DNA from: Methyloversatilis thermotolerans
Lineage (GTDB): Bacteria > Pseudomonadota > Gammaproteobacteria > Burkholderiales > Rhodocyclaceae
Direction: 5' to 3'
NCBI RefSeq assembly: GCF_000372885.1
Contig: NZ_KB889967.1
Location: 2,414,655 to 2,478,654 of the forward strand
DNA length: 64,000 nt
Shown here: positions 4,723-32,681 of the stretch, piece by piece
Layout of the letters: every line of letters starts with the position of its first letter
Numbering within the stretch: position 1 is the first letter of the stretch
Notes under the pieces: model-generated
What the model saw: only the letters and a program-made list of their open reading frames with translations
Told to the model about the DNA's origin: nothing
Databases searched by the model: none
Program-made: the position numbers and the translations under genes

Positions 4723-6207
4723 ATGAAAGCCCATCTGTCTCGTCAGACCATGATTCTTGCGCTGGCCGCAGCCTTCGGGCTGGGCGCAGCGGCGGCCTCG
4801 CTCGAGTGGTTGCGTCCGGTCGAGGCCGCCGCCCCGGCCAGACCGGTCACCCAGCTCGCTCAAGCAGCAAGCGCAGCCGCGCCATCTTCCACACCGCTGG
4901 TCGGAGGATTGCCGGACTTCAGCGCACTGGTCGAGCAGACCTCGCCTTCCGTCGTGAATATCAGCGTCGTGGGCAAGCCTTCCCGCATGGCGATGAATCC
5001 GAACGACCCCATGTTCGAATTCTTCCGCCGCTTCGGCATTCCCGTCCCGCAGAATCCGCAGCGCGGTGGAGAGACACCGGCACCCCGCGGCATCGGATCC
5101 GGATTCGTCATCAGCCAGGACGGCTACATTCTGACCAACGCTCACGTGGTGGCGGACGCGGCGGATGTTACGGTCAAGTTCACCGACAAGCGCGAATACA
5201 AGGCCAAGGTGATAGGCAGCGACAAGAGAACCGATGTGGCGCTGATCAAGATCGATGCACGGAATCTGCCTGCCGTTAAGCTGGGCAACCCGGAAAACAC
5301 CCGCGTGGGCGAATGGGTTGCCGCCATCGGCGCGCCCTTCGGTTTCGAGAACACCGTCACTGCGGGCATCGTAAGCGCGAAGTCGCGCGCCCTGCCCGAT
5401 GAATCGCTGGTGCCTTTCATCCAGACCGATGTGGCCATCAATCCGGGCAACTCGGGGGGACCGCTGTTCAACCTGAACGGCGAGGTGATCGGCATCAACT
5501 CGCAGATCTATTCGCGTACCGGCGGCTTCATGGGCCTGTCATTCGCGATTCCGATCGACGTCGCGATGCGGGTCGCCGATCAGATCAAGCAGTACGGACG
5601 TGCCAGGCACGCCAGACTTGGCGTGAGCATACAGCCGGTCACCCGCGATCTGGCCGACAGTTTCGGCATGGATCGGGCGCGCGGCGCGCTGGTCGCCAAT
5701 GTCGAACAGGGCGGACCGGCGGACAAGGCCGGGCTGCAGGCGGGCGACGTCATTCTGTCGGTCGATGGGCGCGATGTGGTCGATTCCTTCGATCTGCCCA
5801 AGGTGATCGGCAATCTGCCCCCGGGCAAAGCCATCCGCCTCAAGGTATGGCGTCAGGGCAACGAACGGGATCTGACCGCGACGCTGGGTGAACAGAATGA
5901 TGCGGAACAGGTTGCCGAAGCCGGGAACAACGGGCCGGTGCGCGACCGTATCGGCCTCGCCGTCCGGCCGCTGACCGGCGCGGAATCCCAGCAGCTTGGC
6001 GTCAGCCGCGGCCTGGTGGTGGCGGATGCGAGTGGCGCAGCGGCTCAGGCCGGCATACAGCAAGGAGACGCCATCCTGGCCGTGAATGGACAGCCGGTCG
6101 GAAGCGCCGAGGAACTGTCGCGGCTGATCGAAAAGGCCAAGGGACGCGTCGCGCTGCTGGTCCAGCGCGGCGACAACCGCCTGTTCGTGCCGATACGCAT
6201 CAACTGA
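4723..6207 (+). CDS. Periplasmic serine protease DegP/DegQ/MucD-like (HtrA family)
   Basis: A 494-residue Do-type protease/chaperone for envelope quality control. The N-terminus has a positively charged start and a hydrophobic run (residues ~9-26), i.e. a signal peptide or anchor. A trypsin-like domain follows with the triad H141 (TNAHVV), D171 (RTDVALIK) and S244 (NPGNSGGP). Two PDZ domains come next (about 290-385 and 400-490), each with a GLQAGD/GIQQGD-type carboxylate-binding loop. A LoopA-like FRRFGIP segment lies near residue 104-110. The start ATG at 4723 is downstream of AGGAGAGGA. The two-PDZ layout matches DegP, DegQ and MucD, which I cannot separate by eye. It is monocistronic with a strong terminator. 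Confidence 0.93.
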   Translation: MKAHLSRQTMILALAAAFGLGAAAASLEWLRPVEAAAPARPVTQLAQAASAAAPSSTPLVGGLPDFSALVEQTSPSVVNISVVGKPSRMAMNPNDPMFEFFRRFGIPVPQNPQRGGETPAPRGIGSGFVISQDGYILTNAHVVADAADVTVKFTDKREYKAKVIGSDKRTDVALIKIDARNLPAVKLGNPENTRVGEWVAAIGAPFGFENTVTAGIVSAKSRALPDESLVPFIQTDVAINPGNSGGPLFNLNGEVIGINSQIYSRTGGFMGLSFAIPIDVAMRVADQIKQYGRARHARLGVSIQPVTRDLADSFGMDRARGALVANVEQGGPADKAGLQAGDVILSVDGRDVVDSFDLPKVIGNLPPGKAIRLKVWRQGNERDLTATLGEQNDAEQVAEAGNNGPVRDRIGLAVRPLTGAESQQLGVSRGLVVADASGAAAQAGIQQGDAILAVNGQPVGSAEELSRLIEKAKGRVALLVQRGDNRLFVPIRIN

Positions 6208-6215
6208 CGGCAATG

Positions 6216-6241
6216 CCGCGCGCCGGCTTGCCGGCGCGCGG
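6216..6241. terminator. Bidirectional terminator between degP-like gene and ribD
   Basis: A perfect 11-bp GC stem CCGCGCGCCGG / CCGGCGCGCGG with a CTTG loop, followed by TTT on the plus strand. It lies between convergent genes. Confidence 0.75.
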
Positions 6242-6248
6242 TTTCATG

Positions 6249-7349
6249 TCATGCGTCGCAGCGAGCGGCAACGCGCGCAAGCATCCGGATGTCGCTGCCC
6301 ACCTTGCGCATGTCGCGCACATCGATGCGAAGCTTCCGATCCAGCGTGTCGAACGGCCCCAGGTTGAACAGGCCCATGCCACGACCCAGCAGCGCCGGTG
6401 CGAAATACATCAGCACCTCGTCCACGCAACCTTCACGCAGCAGGGATCCATTGAGCTTGTGGCCGGCTTCGACATGGATCTCGTTCAGTCCGCGCGCGGC
6501 CAGGGCGCGGAACATCGCCGGCAGATCCACCTTGCCCGCTTCATTGGGCAGCACCATCAGTTCCGCTCCGGCCTCCCGCAGGCGTCGCGCCTGTTCGGCA
6601 TCGTCACCGGCACACACCACAAGCAAGGGCGCACGCTCGATATCCTGGAACAGCCTGGCACCGACCGGCAGTTGCAACCTCGCATCCACGATGATGCGCA
6701 GCGGCTGGCGCGGGGTGTCGACCTCGCGCACGGTCATCGCCGGATCATCGGCCAGCACCGTGCCGATGCCTGACAGCACGGCGCAGGCGCGGGCGCGCCA
6801 GCGATGCCCATCGCGCCGTGCCTGAGGGCCGGTGATCCACTGGCTCACGCCATTGTCGAGCGCGGTCACGCCATCCAGTGACGACGCGGTCTTCAGCCGC
6901 ACCCAGGGCAGGCCGCGCGTCATGCGCGACACGAACCCGATATTCAGTTCGCGGGCATCCGCTTCAAGCACGCCGCAATCGGTGGCAATTCCGGCGGCCG
7001 CGAGACGGTCAAGACCGCGGCCGGATACCAGCGGATTCGGGTCGCGCATGGCCGCCACCACGCGCGACACGCCAGCCGCCAGCAGCGCGTCGGCGCAAGG
7101 CGGTGTGCGCCCGTGGTGGCTGCACGGCTCCAGCGTGACATAGGCGGTGGCACCTCGCGCCGCCTCACCGGCCGCGCGCAATGCATGGACCTCGGCGTGG
7201 GGCTCTCCCGCCCTCTCATGCCAGCCTTCGCCGACGATGTGGCCGTCCCGCACCAGCACGCAGCCCACGCGCGGGTTGGGCGTCGTGGTCCACAGGCCGC
7301 GCGCCGCCAGTCGCAGCGCGCGGGCCATGAAATGCGCGTCGTGCTCCAT
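6249..7349 (-). CDS. ribD: Bifunctional riboflavin biosynthesis deaminase/reductase
   Basis: A 366-residue enzyme for two successive steps of riboflavin synthesis: deamination of the pyrimidine intermediate, then NADPH-dependent reduction of its ribose. The N-terminal deaminase domain carries the zinc site H51-A-E53 and P75-C76...P84-C85 (LEPCSHHGRTPPC). The C-terminal reductase domain (about 146-366) starts LPWVRLKTASSLDG and contains ITGPQAR. Length equals the usual ~367. The ATG abuts the nrdR stop (TGAATG), so the two are translationally coupled. This nrdR-ribD arrangement is common in proteobacteria. Confidence 0.96.
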   Translation of the reverse strand: MEHDAHFMARALRLAARGLWTTTPNPRVGCVLVRDGHIVGEGWHERAGEPHAEVHALRAAGEAARGATAYVTLEPCSHHGRTPPCADALLAAGVSRVVAAMRDPNPLVSGRGLDRLAAAGIATDCGVLEADARELNIGFVSRMTRGLPWVRLKTASSLDGVTALDNGVSQWITGPQARRDGHRWRARACAVLSGIGTVLADDPAMTVREVDTPRQPLRIIVDARLQLPVGARLFQDIERAPLLVVCAGDDAEQARRLREAGAELMVLPNEAGKVDLPAMFRALAARGLNEIHVEAGHKLNGSLLREGCVDEVLMYFAPALLGRGMGLFNLGPFDTLDRKLRIDVRDMRKVGSDIRMLARVAARCDA

Positions 7350-27179: not shown

Positions 27180-27956
27180 ATGAATACCCCTTCCGACCAG
27201 AATCCGATCGAGCCCGGCGTCGAGCCGTCGATCCAGCACGAGCAGAAGCTGCGCCGTGCGCTGCTGAAGGCCGGCATGGGCGTCAGTGCGGTGCTGGCTT
27301 CCCAGCAGGCGCACTCGACCCTGTCCAAGGGCTACAGCTGCACGATTTCAGGCAAATCCTCCGGAAACACCAGCCACAGGGATTACGGATCCACCGGTTG
27401 CCAGGTCGGCCACCCGCCTTCCAAGTGGTGCGAATACACGACCTACCCGTGGCCAAGCAGCTGCAAGTCGCCCATCATCAAGAAGGCGAGCGGCACCAAG
27501 GGCGGCTACAAGACCTACAGTTCGTCAGCCCACAACTGCGGTTACCGTCCATCCAAGAGCGAGTTCAATGGCGGCACCTATTGCATTCATCCGACCGGCC
27601 GTTCGAATGACGGCACGGCCGACTGCCGCTCCGGCGCCACCTTCGAGGAGGTCATCGGGACATCCCAGGGCTGCTACAACCTGGTCGGTCTGACCGAACT
27701 GAAAGGTACGACGGGTCGCAAGGCGTCCGCATGGGAGGTCATGAACTACCCGGACAGCTATGGCACGTTCGCGCAGTGCATCGCCGCAGCCATGCTGAAC
27801 GCCAAGAAGTATCCGAACACCTACCCCTGCCCGGAAAGTCAGATCCGTGACATCTGGGTATCGATCCAGACCAGCGGCGGCTATACCCCGGTGCCGGGCG
27901 GCCCGAGCTGGGGCGCACTCGAAGTGATCGAGTACTTCAATTCGACCTGGGCCTGA
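27180..27956 (+). CDS. Cys-rich exported protein of an HPr-rel-A operon; candidate substrate
   Basis: A 258-residue protein I cannot assign to an enzyme family. The N-terminal ~27 residues are polar and acidic, followed by a twin-arginine-like run (LRRALLKAGMGVSAVLASQ) and a small-residue stretch AHS. This suggests a leader or Tat signal. The mature part is rich in Gly/Ser/Thr/Tyr and contains ten cysteines spread over about 180 residues, so disulfides or modification are possible. The gene is first in an operon with a PqqD-like protein (TGATG overlap of one base), an HprK-related kinase and a nucleotidyltransferase. In such HPr-rel-A loci the function is unknown; a leader-bearing protein beside a PqqD-like chaperone suggests a modified product. 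Codon use looks like that of its neighbours. Confidence 0.65.
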   Translation: MNTPSDQNPIEPGVEPSIQHEQKLRRALLKAGMGVSAVLASQQAHSTLSKGYSCTISGKSSGNTSHRDYGSTGCQVGHPPSKWCEYTTYPWPSSCKSPIIKKASGTKGGYKTYSSSAHNCGYRPSKSEFNGGTYCIHPTGRSNDGTADCRSGATFEEVIGTSQGCYNLVGLTELKGTTGRKASAWEVMNYPDSYGTFAQCIAAAMLNAKKYPNTYPCPESQIRDIWVSIQTSGGYTPVPGGPSWGALEVIEYFNSTWA

Positions 27957-28159
27957 TGCAGCGTCCATCGGGGCACGCGCTCAAGCTCACTGAAATCGAT
28001 GGCCTGCTCGTTGCCGAATTCTCGGGCGAGGATACGGCCATCGTGTACGATCCGGTCGAATGCTCCGTATCGGTCGTCCGCCTGGAGCAGGACGCGGTAA
28101 CCTCCGGGGTACCGACCACCGCCACCGGCGCGGGATCCACCCACACCGTCAAACCCTGA
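27956..28159 (+). CDS. Short PqqD-like protein of the HPr-rel-A system
   Basis: A 67-residue protein. Its first ~45 residues (ALKLTEIDGLLVAEF, then SGEDTAIVYDP) fit the beta-hairpin start of PqqD-family peptide chaperones, where a pattern like 'LRW-WDDE-VVY--GSGDTHLL' is usual. The C-terminal helices that complete the PqqD winged-helix fold are absent: after residue ~48 the chain is a low-complexity Thr/Gly/Ala tail. Normal length would be about 90. The start overlaps the upstream stop by one base. The shortening, and the missing start of the next gene, suggest a small deletion across the junction. The assignment rests on weak similarity and position. Confidence 0.5.
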   Translation: MQRPSGHALKLTEIDGLLVAEFSGEDTAIVYDPVECSVSVVRLEQDAVTSGVPTTATGAGSTHTVKP

Positions 28160-29031
28160 AATCGAGACAGATTCCGATCGGGCGCTTTTCGGTGCGCGCG
28201 AACTGCGATTCGGCGCAATTCTGGGAGGCGTTCGACTTTCACTACGGCGGGCATCCTCGGCTGCCGGATGATGGCTTCTGCGATTTTTCGCTCAGCATCA
28301 AGCCGCCTTCGGTCCTGCAGTCGATACTGCGCCGCCAGATCACCGTAGAGATCGACGGCGATCAGCCATTTCTGCCACTGCCCTACTCCCAGGCCTATCC
28401 GCTGTTCGAATGGGGTCTGAACTGGTGCGTGTCCATGCATGTTCACCGCTGGATACTGGTGCACGCGGCCGTGGTGGAACGCGGCGGCAAGGCGCTCATC
28501 CTTCCCGCCCCCCCGGGTTCGGGCAAGAGCACGCTTTGCGCGGCACTGGTGTCGCGCGGCTGGCGCCTGCTGTCCGACGAACTGGCCATGCTGGATCCGG
28601 TCACGCTGGATCTGCACCCCTTCCCGCGTCCGGTCAGCCTGAAGAACCGCTCGATCGACATCATCCGCGCATTTGCTTCACCGGACGCCGTCGGCCCGGT
28701 TTTCGTCGACACGCACAAGGGCGACGTGGGCCATCTCAAGGTACCCGACGCATCGCGCGCCGCTGCGGACAGGACGGCGCAACCCGGATGGATCGTGTTC
28801 CCGCGCTATCGTGCGGGCGCCGATCTCACGCTGCAGGCAATTCCGCACGCGGAAGGGGCGCTCGGTCTGATCGACAACTCGTTCAATCACGAGCGTCTGG
28901 GCGCCAGCGCATTCCGCGCACTGGCCGGTGCGACGGCTTTGTGCGGCACCTACCGCTTCGAGTACAGCCGCCTGGACGACGCGATCGCGTGCTTCGACCG
29001 GCTGGCAGCGGGAGCGTACGGTGAAGGATGA
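28156..29031 (+). CDS. HprK-related kinase A (P-loop), start codon uncertain
   Basis: About 291 residues related to the C-terminal P-loop domain of HPr kinase. The core reads HAAVVERGG, ALILPAPPGSGKSTLCAAL (Walker A), then GWRLLSDELAML (Asp of the Walker B type). Conservation begins at LKSRQIPIGRFSVRA, whose first codon is CTG at 28156, overlapping the upstream stop (CTGA). The only upstream ATG in frame (28060) would add 32 residues read out of frame through the PqqD-like gene and looks non-coding. The next possible start is GTG 28192, without a good ribosome-binding site. The target of the kinase in these loci is not known; there is no HPr gene here. The next gene overlaps its 3' end. Confidence 0.75.
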   Translation: MKSRQIPIGRFSVRANCDSAQFWEAFDFHYGGHPRLPDDGFCDFSLSIKPPSVLQSILRRQITVEIDGDQPFLPLPYSQAYPLFEWGLNWCVSMHVHRWILVHAAVVERGGKALILPAPPGSGKSTLCAALVSRGWRLLSDELAMLDPVTLDLHPFPRPVSLKNRSIDIIRAFASPDAVGPVFVDTHKGDVGHLKVPDASRAAADRTAQPGWIVFPRYRAGADLTLQAIPHAEGALGLIDNSFNHERLGASAFRALAGATALCGTYRFEYSRLDDAIACFDRLAAGAYGEG

Positions 29032-30148
29032 AGGTCCGCTGCTGTGCCAGGCACTGGCAGATCCGGGGCGGACCCCCGGATACTCGCCCCGGCAGTGGGA
29101 AGCTCTGGTGATCGAGGGGCGTGTGAGCGGCCTGCTGGCCAAACTGCATTTCGTGCTGGAAGACGCCGGACGGCTCGACGACGTACCGGACGGACCCCGC
29201 ATGCACCTGGATTCGGCGCGGCTTCTGGCGGACGAACAGCACATTGCCCTGAACCACGAACTGACCCAGCTCGGACAGCTTCTGCGCCCGCTTGGCTGTC
29301 CGCTTGTCCTGCTCAAGGGCGCCGCCTATGTGCGCACCGGCATGAAGGCAGCCGGAGGCCGTCGCTTTTCGGATATCGACATCCTTGTGCCAAAGGACAG
29401 GCTGAGCGAAGTCGAGGCCTTGCTCATGCGACATGGCTGGGTGAGCGGGCATCGTGACGCCTATGACCAGCGCTACTACCGGCAGTGGATGCACGAAATC
29501 CCGCCCATGCAACATATCCGGCGCGGCACCACCCTCGACATCCACCATGCGATCACGCCATCTACCTCGCGCATCCGCGCCGACTCGCTCCGCATGCTCG
29601 CAGACGCATCTCCGGCGACGGCCGGCGACGCGTGGTATGCACTGGCACCGCTGGACCGCGTCCTTCACAGCGCGACCCATCTTTTCCTTGAAAGCGAGTT
29701 TCACAACGGCTTGCGCGACCTCGCCGACCTGCACACCCTGCTTGGCGAGCTGCATGCAACGACCCCGGACTTCATGAACGCGCTGCACGCGCGCGCGGCG
29801 GAAACCGGGCTGCGGCGGCCGCTGCACTACGCGCTGCGTTACGTGCGGGCCTTCTTCGGCGCACAAGCGCTGCCCTTCGGGGCGGACCTCGCCCGCGACG
29901 CGCCGCCCGCCTGGATCGGGCATCTCATGGATGCCTGCTTCCGCCAGGCATTCACACCGTATTCGCCCCTGCGTCCGTCCAGTGCCTGGCGCGAGCCCGG
30001 CTTGTTCGCGCTGTATGTACGTGGACACTGGTTGCGCATGCCTGCGCATCTGCTCGCCTACCATCTGACGCGAAAGGCGATCATGACCCGTCTCGAAAAA
30101 AGTCGGGATAATAGGAATTCTGACCAGAACACCACTCACGACGCATGA
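29021..30148 (+). CDS. Nucleotidyltransferase family protein of the HPr-rel-A system
   Basis: A 375-residue protein of the uncharacterised nucleotidyltransferase family. The start is GTG at 29021 with GGGAG six nt upstream, overlapping the kinase stop by 11 nt. The fold signature is visible: [12 protein letters not shown], then [12 protein letters not shown], giving the two metal-binding Asp residues (DID). A third acidic position may be in TTLDIHHAI. The rest is helical and unassigned. Such proteins usually sit with HprK-related kinases and PqqD-like proteins. Nucleotide transfer to the Cys-rich product or to a small molecule is possible but only inferred. The stop overlaps the rpiA start by four nt (ATGA). 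Confidence 0.75.
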
Positions 30149-31608: not shown

Positions 31609-32502
31609 TCAGCGAATGGCGGGGCGCTGCATCTCGCCTGAGGCGGGCACAACGGTACTCACACCCGATGCCGTGGGCATCAGCGTTGGCAGTTCGGCAT
31701 CCGGCTCGGGCATTTCGGCTTCCCTGGACAGCCGTTGCGCGAATTGCAACTGCTCCGGGCGCAGCGAAGCGCCCACCTCGTCGCGCGCACCCCGTGCCGC
31801 GCCATGCCCCTGCGCCGCGGCACGATTGAACCAGGCGTAGGCGCGCACGAGATCCAGTGACACGCCTTCCCCTATCCGGTGCAGGCGTCCCATGTGGTAT
31901 TGCGCCGCGACATGCCCGCTGCGCGCCGCGCGCGCAAACCAGCGAGCCGCTGCAGGATAATCCTGCAGCGTGCCACGCCCGAGCTTGAACGCCAGCGCAA
32001 GCTCATACTGCGCCTGAGCATGTCCCTGGGCGGCCGCCTTCTCCAGCCAGCGGACCGCCTCGGCCATGTCCGACGCTTCGCCGGACCCGCCCTGGAACAG
32101 CAGCATCCCGTAAGTGTATTGCGCTGCAGCATCGCCGGCCGCGGCGCGGCGCCTTTCCGCCTCGAGCGGCGCAAGTTCCGACAACATCCTGTCGTGATCG
32201 CTCACGGCCTGGGCTTCAATACCACTCAGGGTCCAGGCAAGTGTCCCCACGACCGTGAGCAGGACAAGGCCCCCCAGCACTGCGACAGGCACCCTGCGCA
32301 GACGCACGAAGCGCTTGTGGCAAGCGCGGCAGCGTACAGGTCTGAGCCAGAAGCGCCCGGCCTTCTCTTCGCGATTCCTCCAGATGGAGTCCTTCGTATC
32401 CTTGCTGAGGCAGTAAGGACAGGCGCGAGGACCGCTGATCAGGCTGGATAGTCGTTGGGGCACGATGGTATGAAAGGTCGGGGCCAGGACCACGGCCAGC
32501 AT
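31609..32502 (-). CDS. Zinc-ribbon membrane protein with Sel1 repeats
   Basis: About 297 residues. The N-terminal part has a zinc-ribbon-like CPYC...CRACHKRF pair. A transmembrane segment follows (about 75-97, VPVAVLGGLVLLTVVGTLAW). Then come at least three Sel1/TPR-like repeats (AQYTYGMLLFQGGSG; AQYELALAFKLGRG; AQYHMGRLHRIGEG) each with AxxWxxxAAxxGH helices. The C-terminus is acidic and Pro-rich. The start is uncertain: ATG 32502 has no good ribosome site, ATG 32535 and GTG further in are alternatives. Topology suggests a cytoplasmic zinc ribbon and an exported repeat region. Partner proteins are not known. Confidence 0.7.
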   Translation of the reverse strand: MLAVVLAPTFHTIVPQRLSSLISGPRACPYCLSKDTKDSIWRNREEKAGRFWLRPVRCRACHKRFVRLRRVPVAVLGGLVLLTVVGTLAWTLSGIEAQAVSDHDRMLSELAPLEAERRRAAAGDAAAQYTYGMLLFQGGSGEASDMAEAVRWLEKAAAQGHAQAQYELALAFKLGRGTLQDYPAAARWFARAARSGHVAAQYHMGRLHRIGEGVSLDLVRAYAWFNRAAAQGHGAARGARDEVGASLRPEQLQFAQRLSREAEMPEPDAELPTLMPTASGVSTVVPASGEMQRPAIR

Positions 32503-32681
32503 AGAAGGATGAACCCTGTTCCTGCCGCTGTGCACCCGCCTCGCGCCGGAAACCGGCGCCCCCTACAACGCACGGGGTCGGACGATCAGCGTCCGCGAGG
32601 CGGCGCAGGCATGCAGAACAGGAATTTCCGGTGCTGAAATTATCACCAATACATCGGCACCCGGGTGAAGTTCTGTTTCGA

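Follow-up and report, generated by a model that had tools for sequence, protein, structure and literature searches.

Close described counterparts of the locus considered here belong to lasso-peptide biosynthesis (PadeK of paeninodin, ThcoK, and PsmK with PsmN of pseudomycoidin); there too, a precursor is acted on by a nucleotidyltransferase and by an HprK-like kinase whose motif is H-K-D-(D/E). Lasso clusters also contain a PqqD-like B1 protein, and we take PsmN to be a member of PF14907. According to reviews, the lasso-cluster kinases phosphorylate a serine of the precursor, those acting on serine carry the motif H-K-D-D, and the phosphoserine then receives one or two hexoses from PsmN, with a host enzyme as an alternative that was not excluded (PMC9266682, PMC8498205). 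In the present study, we analysed a locus of four genes of the HPr-rel-A type in Methyloversatilis thermotolerans (contig NZ_KB889967.1, positions 2,414,655 to 2,478,654; this whole stretch of 64,000 nucleotides is called the window). Our best explanation, to which we give a probability of roughly 0.55, is that the four genes form a self-contained cassette for protein modification and export: the protein of gene 1 would be phosphorylated by the kinase (gene 3), extended by the nucleotidyltransferase (gene 4) and exported through the twin-arginine translocation (Tat) pathway.

The identity of the two enzymes, as proposed in an earlier note made from the DNA letters alone, was borne out. Gene 3 scored 346.6 bits against HprK-related kinase A (TIGR04352, cut-off 200), and gene 4 scored 169.6 bits against the nucleotidyltransferase family NTP_transf_5 (PF14907, gathering cut-off 31.2). 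HPr kinase/phosphorylase (TIGR00679; PDB 1jb1) has the positions of the P-loop, the histidine, the lysine and the first aspartate in common with gene 3, but gene 3 reached only 17.2 bits against its cut-off of 240; the true HPr kinase of this genome is encoded separately, elsewhere, and carries an aspartate where gene 3 has E142. The next best kinase family, ScmC of the SynChlorMet type (TIGR04249), also remained below its cut-off (32.1 bits, cut-off 125), and a scan of the six flanking genes revealed no radical SAM gene. G121, G123, K124, T126, S140, D141 and E142, together with the upstream H103, were invariant in 24/24 aligned kinases, and the H-K-D-E of the window kinase is close to the H-K-D-D of the lasso-peptide kinases. 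Gene 4 likewise keeps its catalytic D-x-D intact, with G100, R114, D120 and H175 in 86/86 homologues and D118 and D173 in 85/86.

By analogy, then, the cassette would work like lasso tailoring, yet it is not a lasso cluster. Neither a lasso peptidase nor an asparagine-synthetase-like cyclase was present among the six flanking genes scanned; lasso precursors are short peptides, whereas the substrate candidate here is a protein with a median length of 212 residues; and the phosphoserine of lasso peptides is C-terminal, whereas the candidate serines here lie behind the leader and gene 1 ends in ...NSTWA, its family being variable at the C-terminus. The HPr-rel-A system itself (TIGR04352, TIGR04353) covers the window kinase, and relatives carry a TIGR04353 protein between gene 1 and the kinase, but its family names are silent on a substrate, and no family model covers gene 1. 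Our searches of one literature library returned no paper on HPr-rel-A or HprK-related kinase A and no known target, the wider searches yielding mainly lasso-peptide papers; no paper joining exosortase with HprK and none on SPGYWK was found either. Both HprK-related kinase A and the PqqD-like protein beside it already bear family names; what is new is a substrate candidate with a testable site.

Gene 1 as the constant companion of the kinase

The locus set consisted of the first 25 kinase loci and the best 80 of at least 193 relatives from a contig scan with 24 kinases, making 105 loci, of which four duplicate others, and hence 101 distinct kinase loci. A homologue of gene 1 occurred in 102/105 loci and in 98/101 distinct ones, two of the three misses being contig ends, so that gene 1 is the constant companion of the kinase, beyond chance. 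With iterated profiles, it was found upstream of the kinase in 23 of the first 25 loci; the other two were L061, where the same four genes stand in a different order with gene 1 downstream, and L062, a locus with a weaker second kinase and no gene 1. Among the best 80 relatives it was present in 78 (downstream and on the opposite strand in L133), and the two misses have just 491 and 743 bases upstream. The earlier note had named the absence of gene 1 beside such kinases in related genomes as the observation that would speak against it, and the opposite was observed. In an even class sample of 274 genomes, gene 1 stood beside the kinase in 25 of the 27 genomes with a kinase above the cut-off; of the remaining two, G151 showed gene 1 on closer look (E 2.6e-5) and in G319 the contig ends. 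Ten further genomes of this sample had a gene-1 match with no above-cut-off kinase: in G161 and G244 gene 1 has a less well-scoring HprK-like kinase as its neighbour, four match by the C-terminal domain only, and four matches are weak.

A direct gene-1 search found matches in 7/61 genomes, the window's own counted, and the first contig scan using gene 1 alone found no relative, while the kinase exceeded its cut-off in 24/61 genomes, including all 13 of the genus. Because iterated profiles recover the homologues, these few matches reflect divergence and not absence. The mean column identity of the family is about 14%, and its length has a range of 118-282 residues (the shortest row is truncated at a contig end). 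Neither the window protein nor the 21 of 98 homologues that were scanned matched a Pfam or NCBIfam family. Among four sister genomes gene 1 had a ratio of non-synonymous to synonymous substitution rates (dN/dS) of 0.16-0.34 and the kinase one of 0.07-0.13, which indicates purifying selection on both.

Within this divergent family, three features stand out. The arginine pair R25-R26 is kept in 96/98 distinct homologues, and the two sequences without it are cut short by the end of their contig; the pattern [STAG]RRx[FLMIV] is found in 70 of these 96 leaders, and in 89 of the 96 the stretch behind the pair is free of acidic residues. Behind the leader comes a serine segment, with column conservation in the 98 sequences of 93 for C54, 93 for S57, 92 for S61, 71 for S65 and 92 for C74; threonine replaces S57 in 1/98 and S61 in 0/98. 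The motif C.{1,4}S...S occurs within 42 residues behind the leader in 85/98 homologues, whereas 200 shuffles gave 13 on average and never more than 24. Further downstream lies a domain with the pattern SPGYWK...W followed by HxxAAxLNA (W83 82, W91 83, L206 88, N207 85), of which the gene-1 form matched no Pfam model; the remainder of the protein diverges. As for the leader-bearing protein with ten cysteines of the earlier note, the leader is conserved and the ten cysteines are there in the window, but C54 and C74 alone are conserved family-wide. The cysteine-rich core of that note was therefore dropped as the key feature: the family has a median of five cysteines, and at least ten in only 3/98 distinct homologues.

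The predicted structure of gene 1 had a mean predicted local distance difference test score (pLDDT) of 71.6, high only in the C-terminal helices. A search of solved structures with gene 1 returned none, and its model had no PDB match at the E threshold of 0.001; VIA was the best of 54 chains, with Z 2.1. This does not by itself establish a new fold. The SPGYW/LNA domain was also seen in six other open reading frames (L150, L151, L152, L153, L154 and L155), mostly larger ones, and most of them have N-termini that resemble signal sequences by eye.

Gene 2 and the PqqD-like partner

A PqqD-like protein of about 90 residues is encoded between gene 1 and the kinase in 91 of the 99 loci that could be tested; of seven such proteins compared with TIGR04353, five scored above the cut-off, one below it, and one gave no match. 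No such protein was found at this place in the window, in its four sister genomes (two represented twice) or in L132, where a PqqD-like open reading frame lies about 3 kb upstream; L061 and L133 have PqqD-like frames too. Only the window clade, therefore, is without a recognisable PqqD-like protein.

The description of gene 2 as PqqD-like was not supported. Gene 2 of the window matched no NCBIfam or Pfam family, TIGR04353 included; the profile of its positional counterparts lent no support (E 12), and profile-profile comparison gave a probability of 20% over 12 columns. A search for TIGR04353 in the window's genome gave no match, though no control scored in that search. Gene 2 does have a stretch E-x-x-A-x-V-Y-D in common with the PqqD strand region. 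The sister genomes carry counterparts of 48 codons (e.g., L009:9147-9290) with dN/dS of 0.035-0.31, and thus gene 2 is a kept gene. It is probably a shortened positional counterpart of the PqqD-like protein and not a member of the family. It is kept within a single clade of the genus and could be a minimal leader-binding module. In the window clade the loss of a recognisable PqqD-like protein coincides with an altered leader, which is one event and no test of a link. A different arrangement was seen at L062:6514-7692, where the weaker HprK-like kinase is fused to an N-terminal PqqD-like part (E 0.0012), with a nucleotidyltransferase upstream.

Proposed modification of gene 1 and rival explanations

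Its constancy beside the kinase, its arginine-pair leader and its conserved serine motif together make gene 1 the likely dedicated substrate of the kinase and the nucleotidyltransferase, much as the earlier note had supposed when it proposed a modified product with phosphate- or nucleotide-type chemistry. Following the lasso precedent, the kinase should phosphorylate gene 1 and gene 4 should extend it before Tat export. In the cytoplasm, HprK-related kinase A would phosphorylate a serine of C54-x2-S57-x3-S61, most likely S57 or S61, and the PF14907 nucleotidyltransferase would then extend the phosphate with a phospho-linked group, either a hexose or a nucleotide, while the PqqD-like protein, or its short form in the window, may assist in presenting the leader. 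Once modified, gene 1's protein would be exported by Tat, for which the genome has a tatC gene (TatC), lose its leader and act outside the cytoplasm, perhaps in the extracellular matrix. If true, HprK-type phosphorylation with nucleotidyltransferase extension reaches whole exported proteins, beyond lasso peptides. The candidate target that can now be named is a single protein family, marked by its leader and a pair of conserved serines, that accompanies these enzymes across Beta- and Gammaproteobacteria; the cassette occurs in many environmental proteobacteria.

Several points weigh against this explanation. The leader is Tat-like, as the earlier note had suggested, but in the window it reads RRALLKAG with the pair preceded by leucine, which fits neither [STAG]RRx[FLMIV] nor the strict form [ST]RRx[FLMIV]; only 39/96 family leaders meet the strict form, and the NCBIfam Tat model matched 1/21 homologues (E 0.16). 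By regular expression, the serine motif is absent in 13/98 homologues, two being truncated rows, and a Sphingomonas (alphaproteobacterial) cassette retains the leader without the motif; therefore the acceptor is not universal, and C54, C74 and the serines could alternatively be structural. The partner missing from the window clade counts here as well. That gene 1 is modified at all is something we infer from the lasso analogy, and even for lasso peptides the second reaction is uncertain, for the reason of the host enzyme mentioned above (PMC9266682, PMC8498205).

The predicted structure of gene 4 (a polymerase-beta type fold, mean pLDDT 92.1) reveals no substrate, and a search of solved structures with gene 4 returned none, but its model lends something to two of the rival explanations. 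Tat normally carries folded, cofactor-loaded proteins, and ApbE, for example, attaches flavin mononucleotide. The nucleotidyltransferase might accordingly attach a nucleotide- or phosphate-bearing cofactor to the serine motif, with the kinase making a small-molecule donor and Tat exporting the folded, loaded protein. The near absence of threonine from the motif and the resemblance of the gene 4 model to ANT(2'')-Ia, a small-molecule enzyme (Z 11.6, root-mean-square deviation 5.0, 176 residues), agree with such a prosthetic group, whereas the closest named sequence relatives of the kinase are of HprK type and the lasso precedent is one of protein phosphorylation; we regard it as an unlikely yet real possibility. 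The closest PDB match of the same model is the MenT1 toxin (Z 13.9, root-mean-square deviation 3.0, 179 residues), and this, with the strong divergence of gene 1, might point to defence or conflict, in which a fast-evolving exported protein is combined with a toxin-like nucleotidyltransferase, and the kinase and small partner serve maturation or immunity. A single kinase copy at one conserved place in all 13 genomes of the genus, under purifying selection, makes this highly improbable.

A regulatory role, in which the kinase would target HPr or some other central protein while gene 1 serves only as partner or sensor, would suit the HprK relationship of gene 3 and the position of the cassette in this genus between pyruvate dehydrogenase genes and rpiA/phoU. 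The genome, however, has its own TIGR00679 kinase, and these metabolic neighbours are genus-specific while the constant neighbour is gene 1, so we consider this role quite improbable. It is also conceivable that gene 1 is a plain exported GYW-domain protein for which genes 2-4 provide chaperoning or quality control, leaving it unmodified. In its favour, the GYW domain occurs in further proteins, some of them from genomes in which no kinase exceeds the cut-off; both enzymes, however, retain their catalytic residues, and in the six other GYW proteins the match starts no earlier than profile position 68, past the serine segment (L151 has an extra weak stretch from 55), which leaves this explanation improbable.

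Locus layout and genomic surroundings

Coordinates are collected in the table below. As had been noted from the letters, consecutive genes overlap by 1, 4 and 11 nt, all on one strand from 27180 to 30148, and the genome holds single copies of the kinase and of gene 1.

Features of the cassette (positions within the window)
Feature	Position	Strand	Basis or remark
Gene 1, probably exported partner protein	27180..27956	+	Open reading frame, 258 residues, 10 Cys; most likely substrate of kinase and nucleotidyltransferase
Tat-like leader of gene 1, residues 22-46	27243..27317	+	R25-R26, then ALLKAG and an uncharged stretch
C54-x2-S57-x3-S61-G-N-x-S65...C74 segment, candidate acceptor site	27339..27401	+	Conservation in 98 homologues
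GYW/LNA-type domain of gene 1	27408..27953	+	Divergent in the window: GHPPSKW..., FAQCIAAAMLNA...
Gene 2, short protein encoded where relatives have the PqqD-like gene; probable shortened form	27956..28159	+	67 residues; position
Gene 3, HprK-related kinase A, apparent CTG start	28156..29031	+	TIGR04352
Kinase P-loop (APPGSGKST) to S140-D141-E142	28507..28581	+	Invariant residues, 24 kinases
Gene 4, PF14907 nucleotidyltransferase, GTG start	29021..30148	+	Pfam score, catalytic residues

The start of the kinase that gives the 4-nt overlap is a CTG, and the nearest usual in-frame start upstream would create an overlap of about 100 nt with gene 2. Since CCC-CTG-AAA and the following frame are conserved in five genomes (the window and its sisters L009-L012), and L009-L011 have no ATG, GTG or TTG ahead of the conserved first residues, CTG is likely the start. 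A programmed frameshift joining gene 2 and the kinase was considered and found no support: before the stop the window has ACCC where its sisters have CCCC, and the preceding frame is broken in L012.

The order of the cassette genes is nearly constant (the exceptions are L061 and L133), and a gene 4 homologue was present in 104/105 loci, the sole miss being a contig end, but the surroundings differ. In this genus, where each of the 13 genomes has one copy of the kinase, the cassette sits at one place between identical neighbours in 13/13 loci; the six flanking genes scanned were aceE, aceF and lpd upstream, rpiA and phoU downstream, and one for a TPR-type protein. The coupling to rpiA asserted in the earlier note is real as an overlap, the start of rpiA overlapping the end of gene 4 by 4 nt, but its meaning does not extend beyond the genus: elsewhere rpiA was found at L126 and L128 only, about 5 kb off. 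Both rpiA and pyruvate dehydrogenase were consequently ruled out as partners.

Another association recurs more widely. One representative of each cluster of neighbouring genes was scanned, and exopolysaccharide clusters of the XrtA/PEP-CTERM type were found near the cassette: the export protein TIGR03027 in 23 loci, the chain-length determinant TIGR03007 in 19, the tyrosine kinase TIGR03018 in 17 and PrsT (TIGR02917) in 20. At least one of these four clusters was present in 34 of the 98 loci with predicted genes (e.g., L103, L105, L107 and L108) and in 0/13 of this genus. In the even class sample, exosortase A (TIGR03109, above cut-off) was detected in 22/27 kinase genomes compared with 29/247 others, with a Fisher p of 4e-14 that is too small because the genomes are related. 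The cassette is linked to exosortase-A systems, and the proposed modification, if true, would likely connect it with matrix-forming, exosortase-A bacteria. A chymotrypsin-like protease cluster, whose representative matches MarP-type models below the cut-off, was present in 30 loci.

A more far-reaching version of the proposal, distinctly unlikely in our view, is that the leader-guided enzyme pair would furnish a folded protein, exported by Tat, with a glycan (or nucleotide) linked through phosphoserine. The product would be a proteophosphoglycan of bacteria, bound by its glycan to an extracellular matrix of the exosortase-A type, with the related short-peptide cassettes as cousins resembling ribosomally synthesized and post-translationally modified peptides (RiPPs). 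Beside weaker HprK-like kinases, we observed short open reading frames of 63-91 codons (L144:4555-4749, 6200-6391 and L145:4434-4709), which have a leader resembling that of gene 1, SRRxF(I/V)K..AYxAPVV(L/M)TLxAxP, and a short core; they are possibly RiPP-like peptides of a sister system.

On the minus strand of the window, 31612-32535 encodes a protein of TPR/Sel1 appearance with a sub-threshold MerG match (69.9 bits, cut-off 350). Finally, the nucleotidyltransferase and kinase were seen on three Vibrio alfacsensis plasmid records; a plasmid copy of gene 1, annotated 'hypothetical protein', reads SRRRFIRSA and CSITSCMSGNAS, and in the one record examined the cassette (L158:2013-5080) lies near genes for 2-aminoethylphosphonate uptake.

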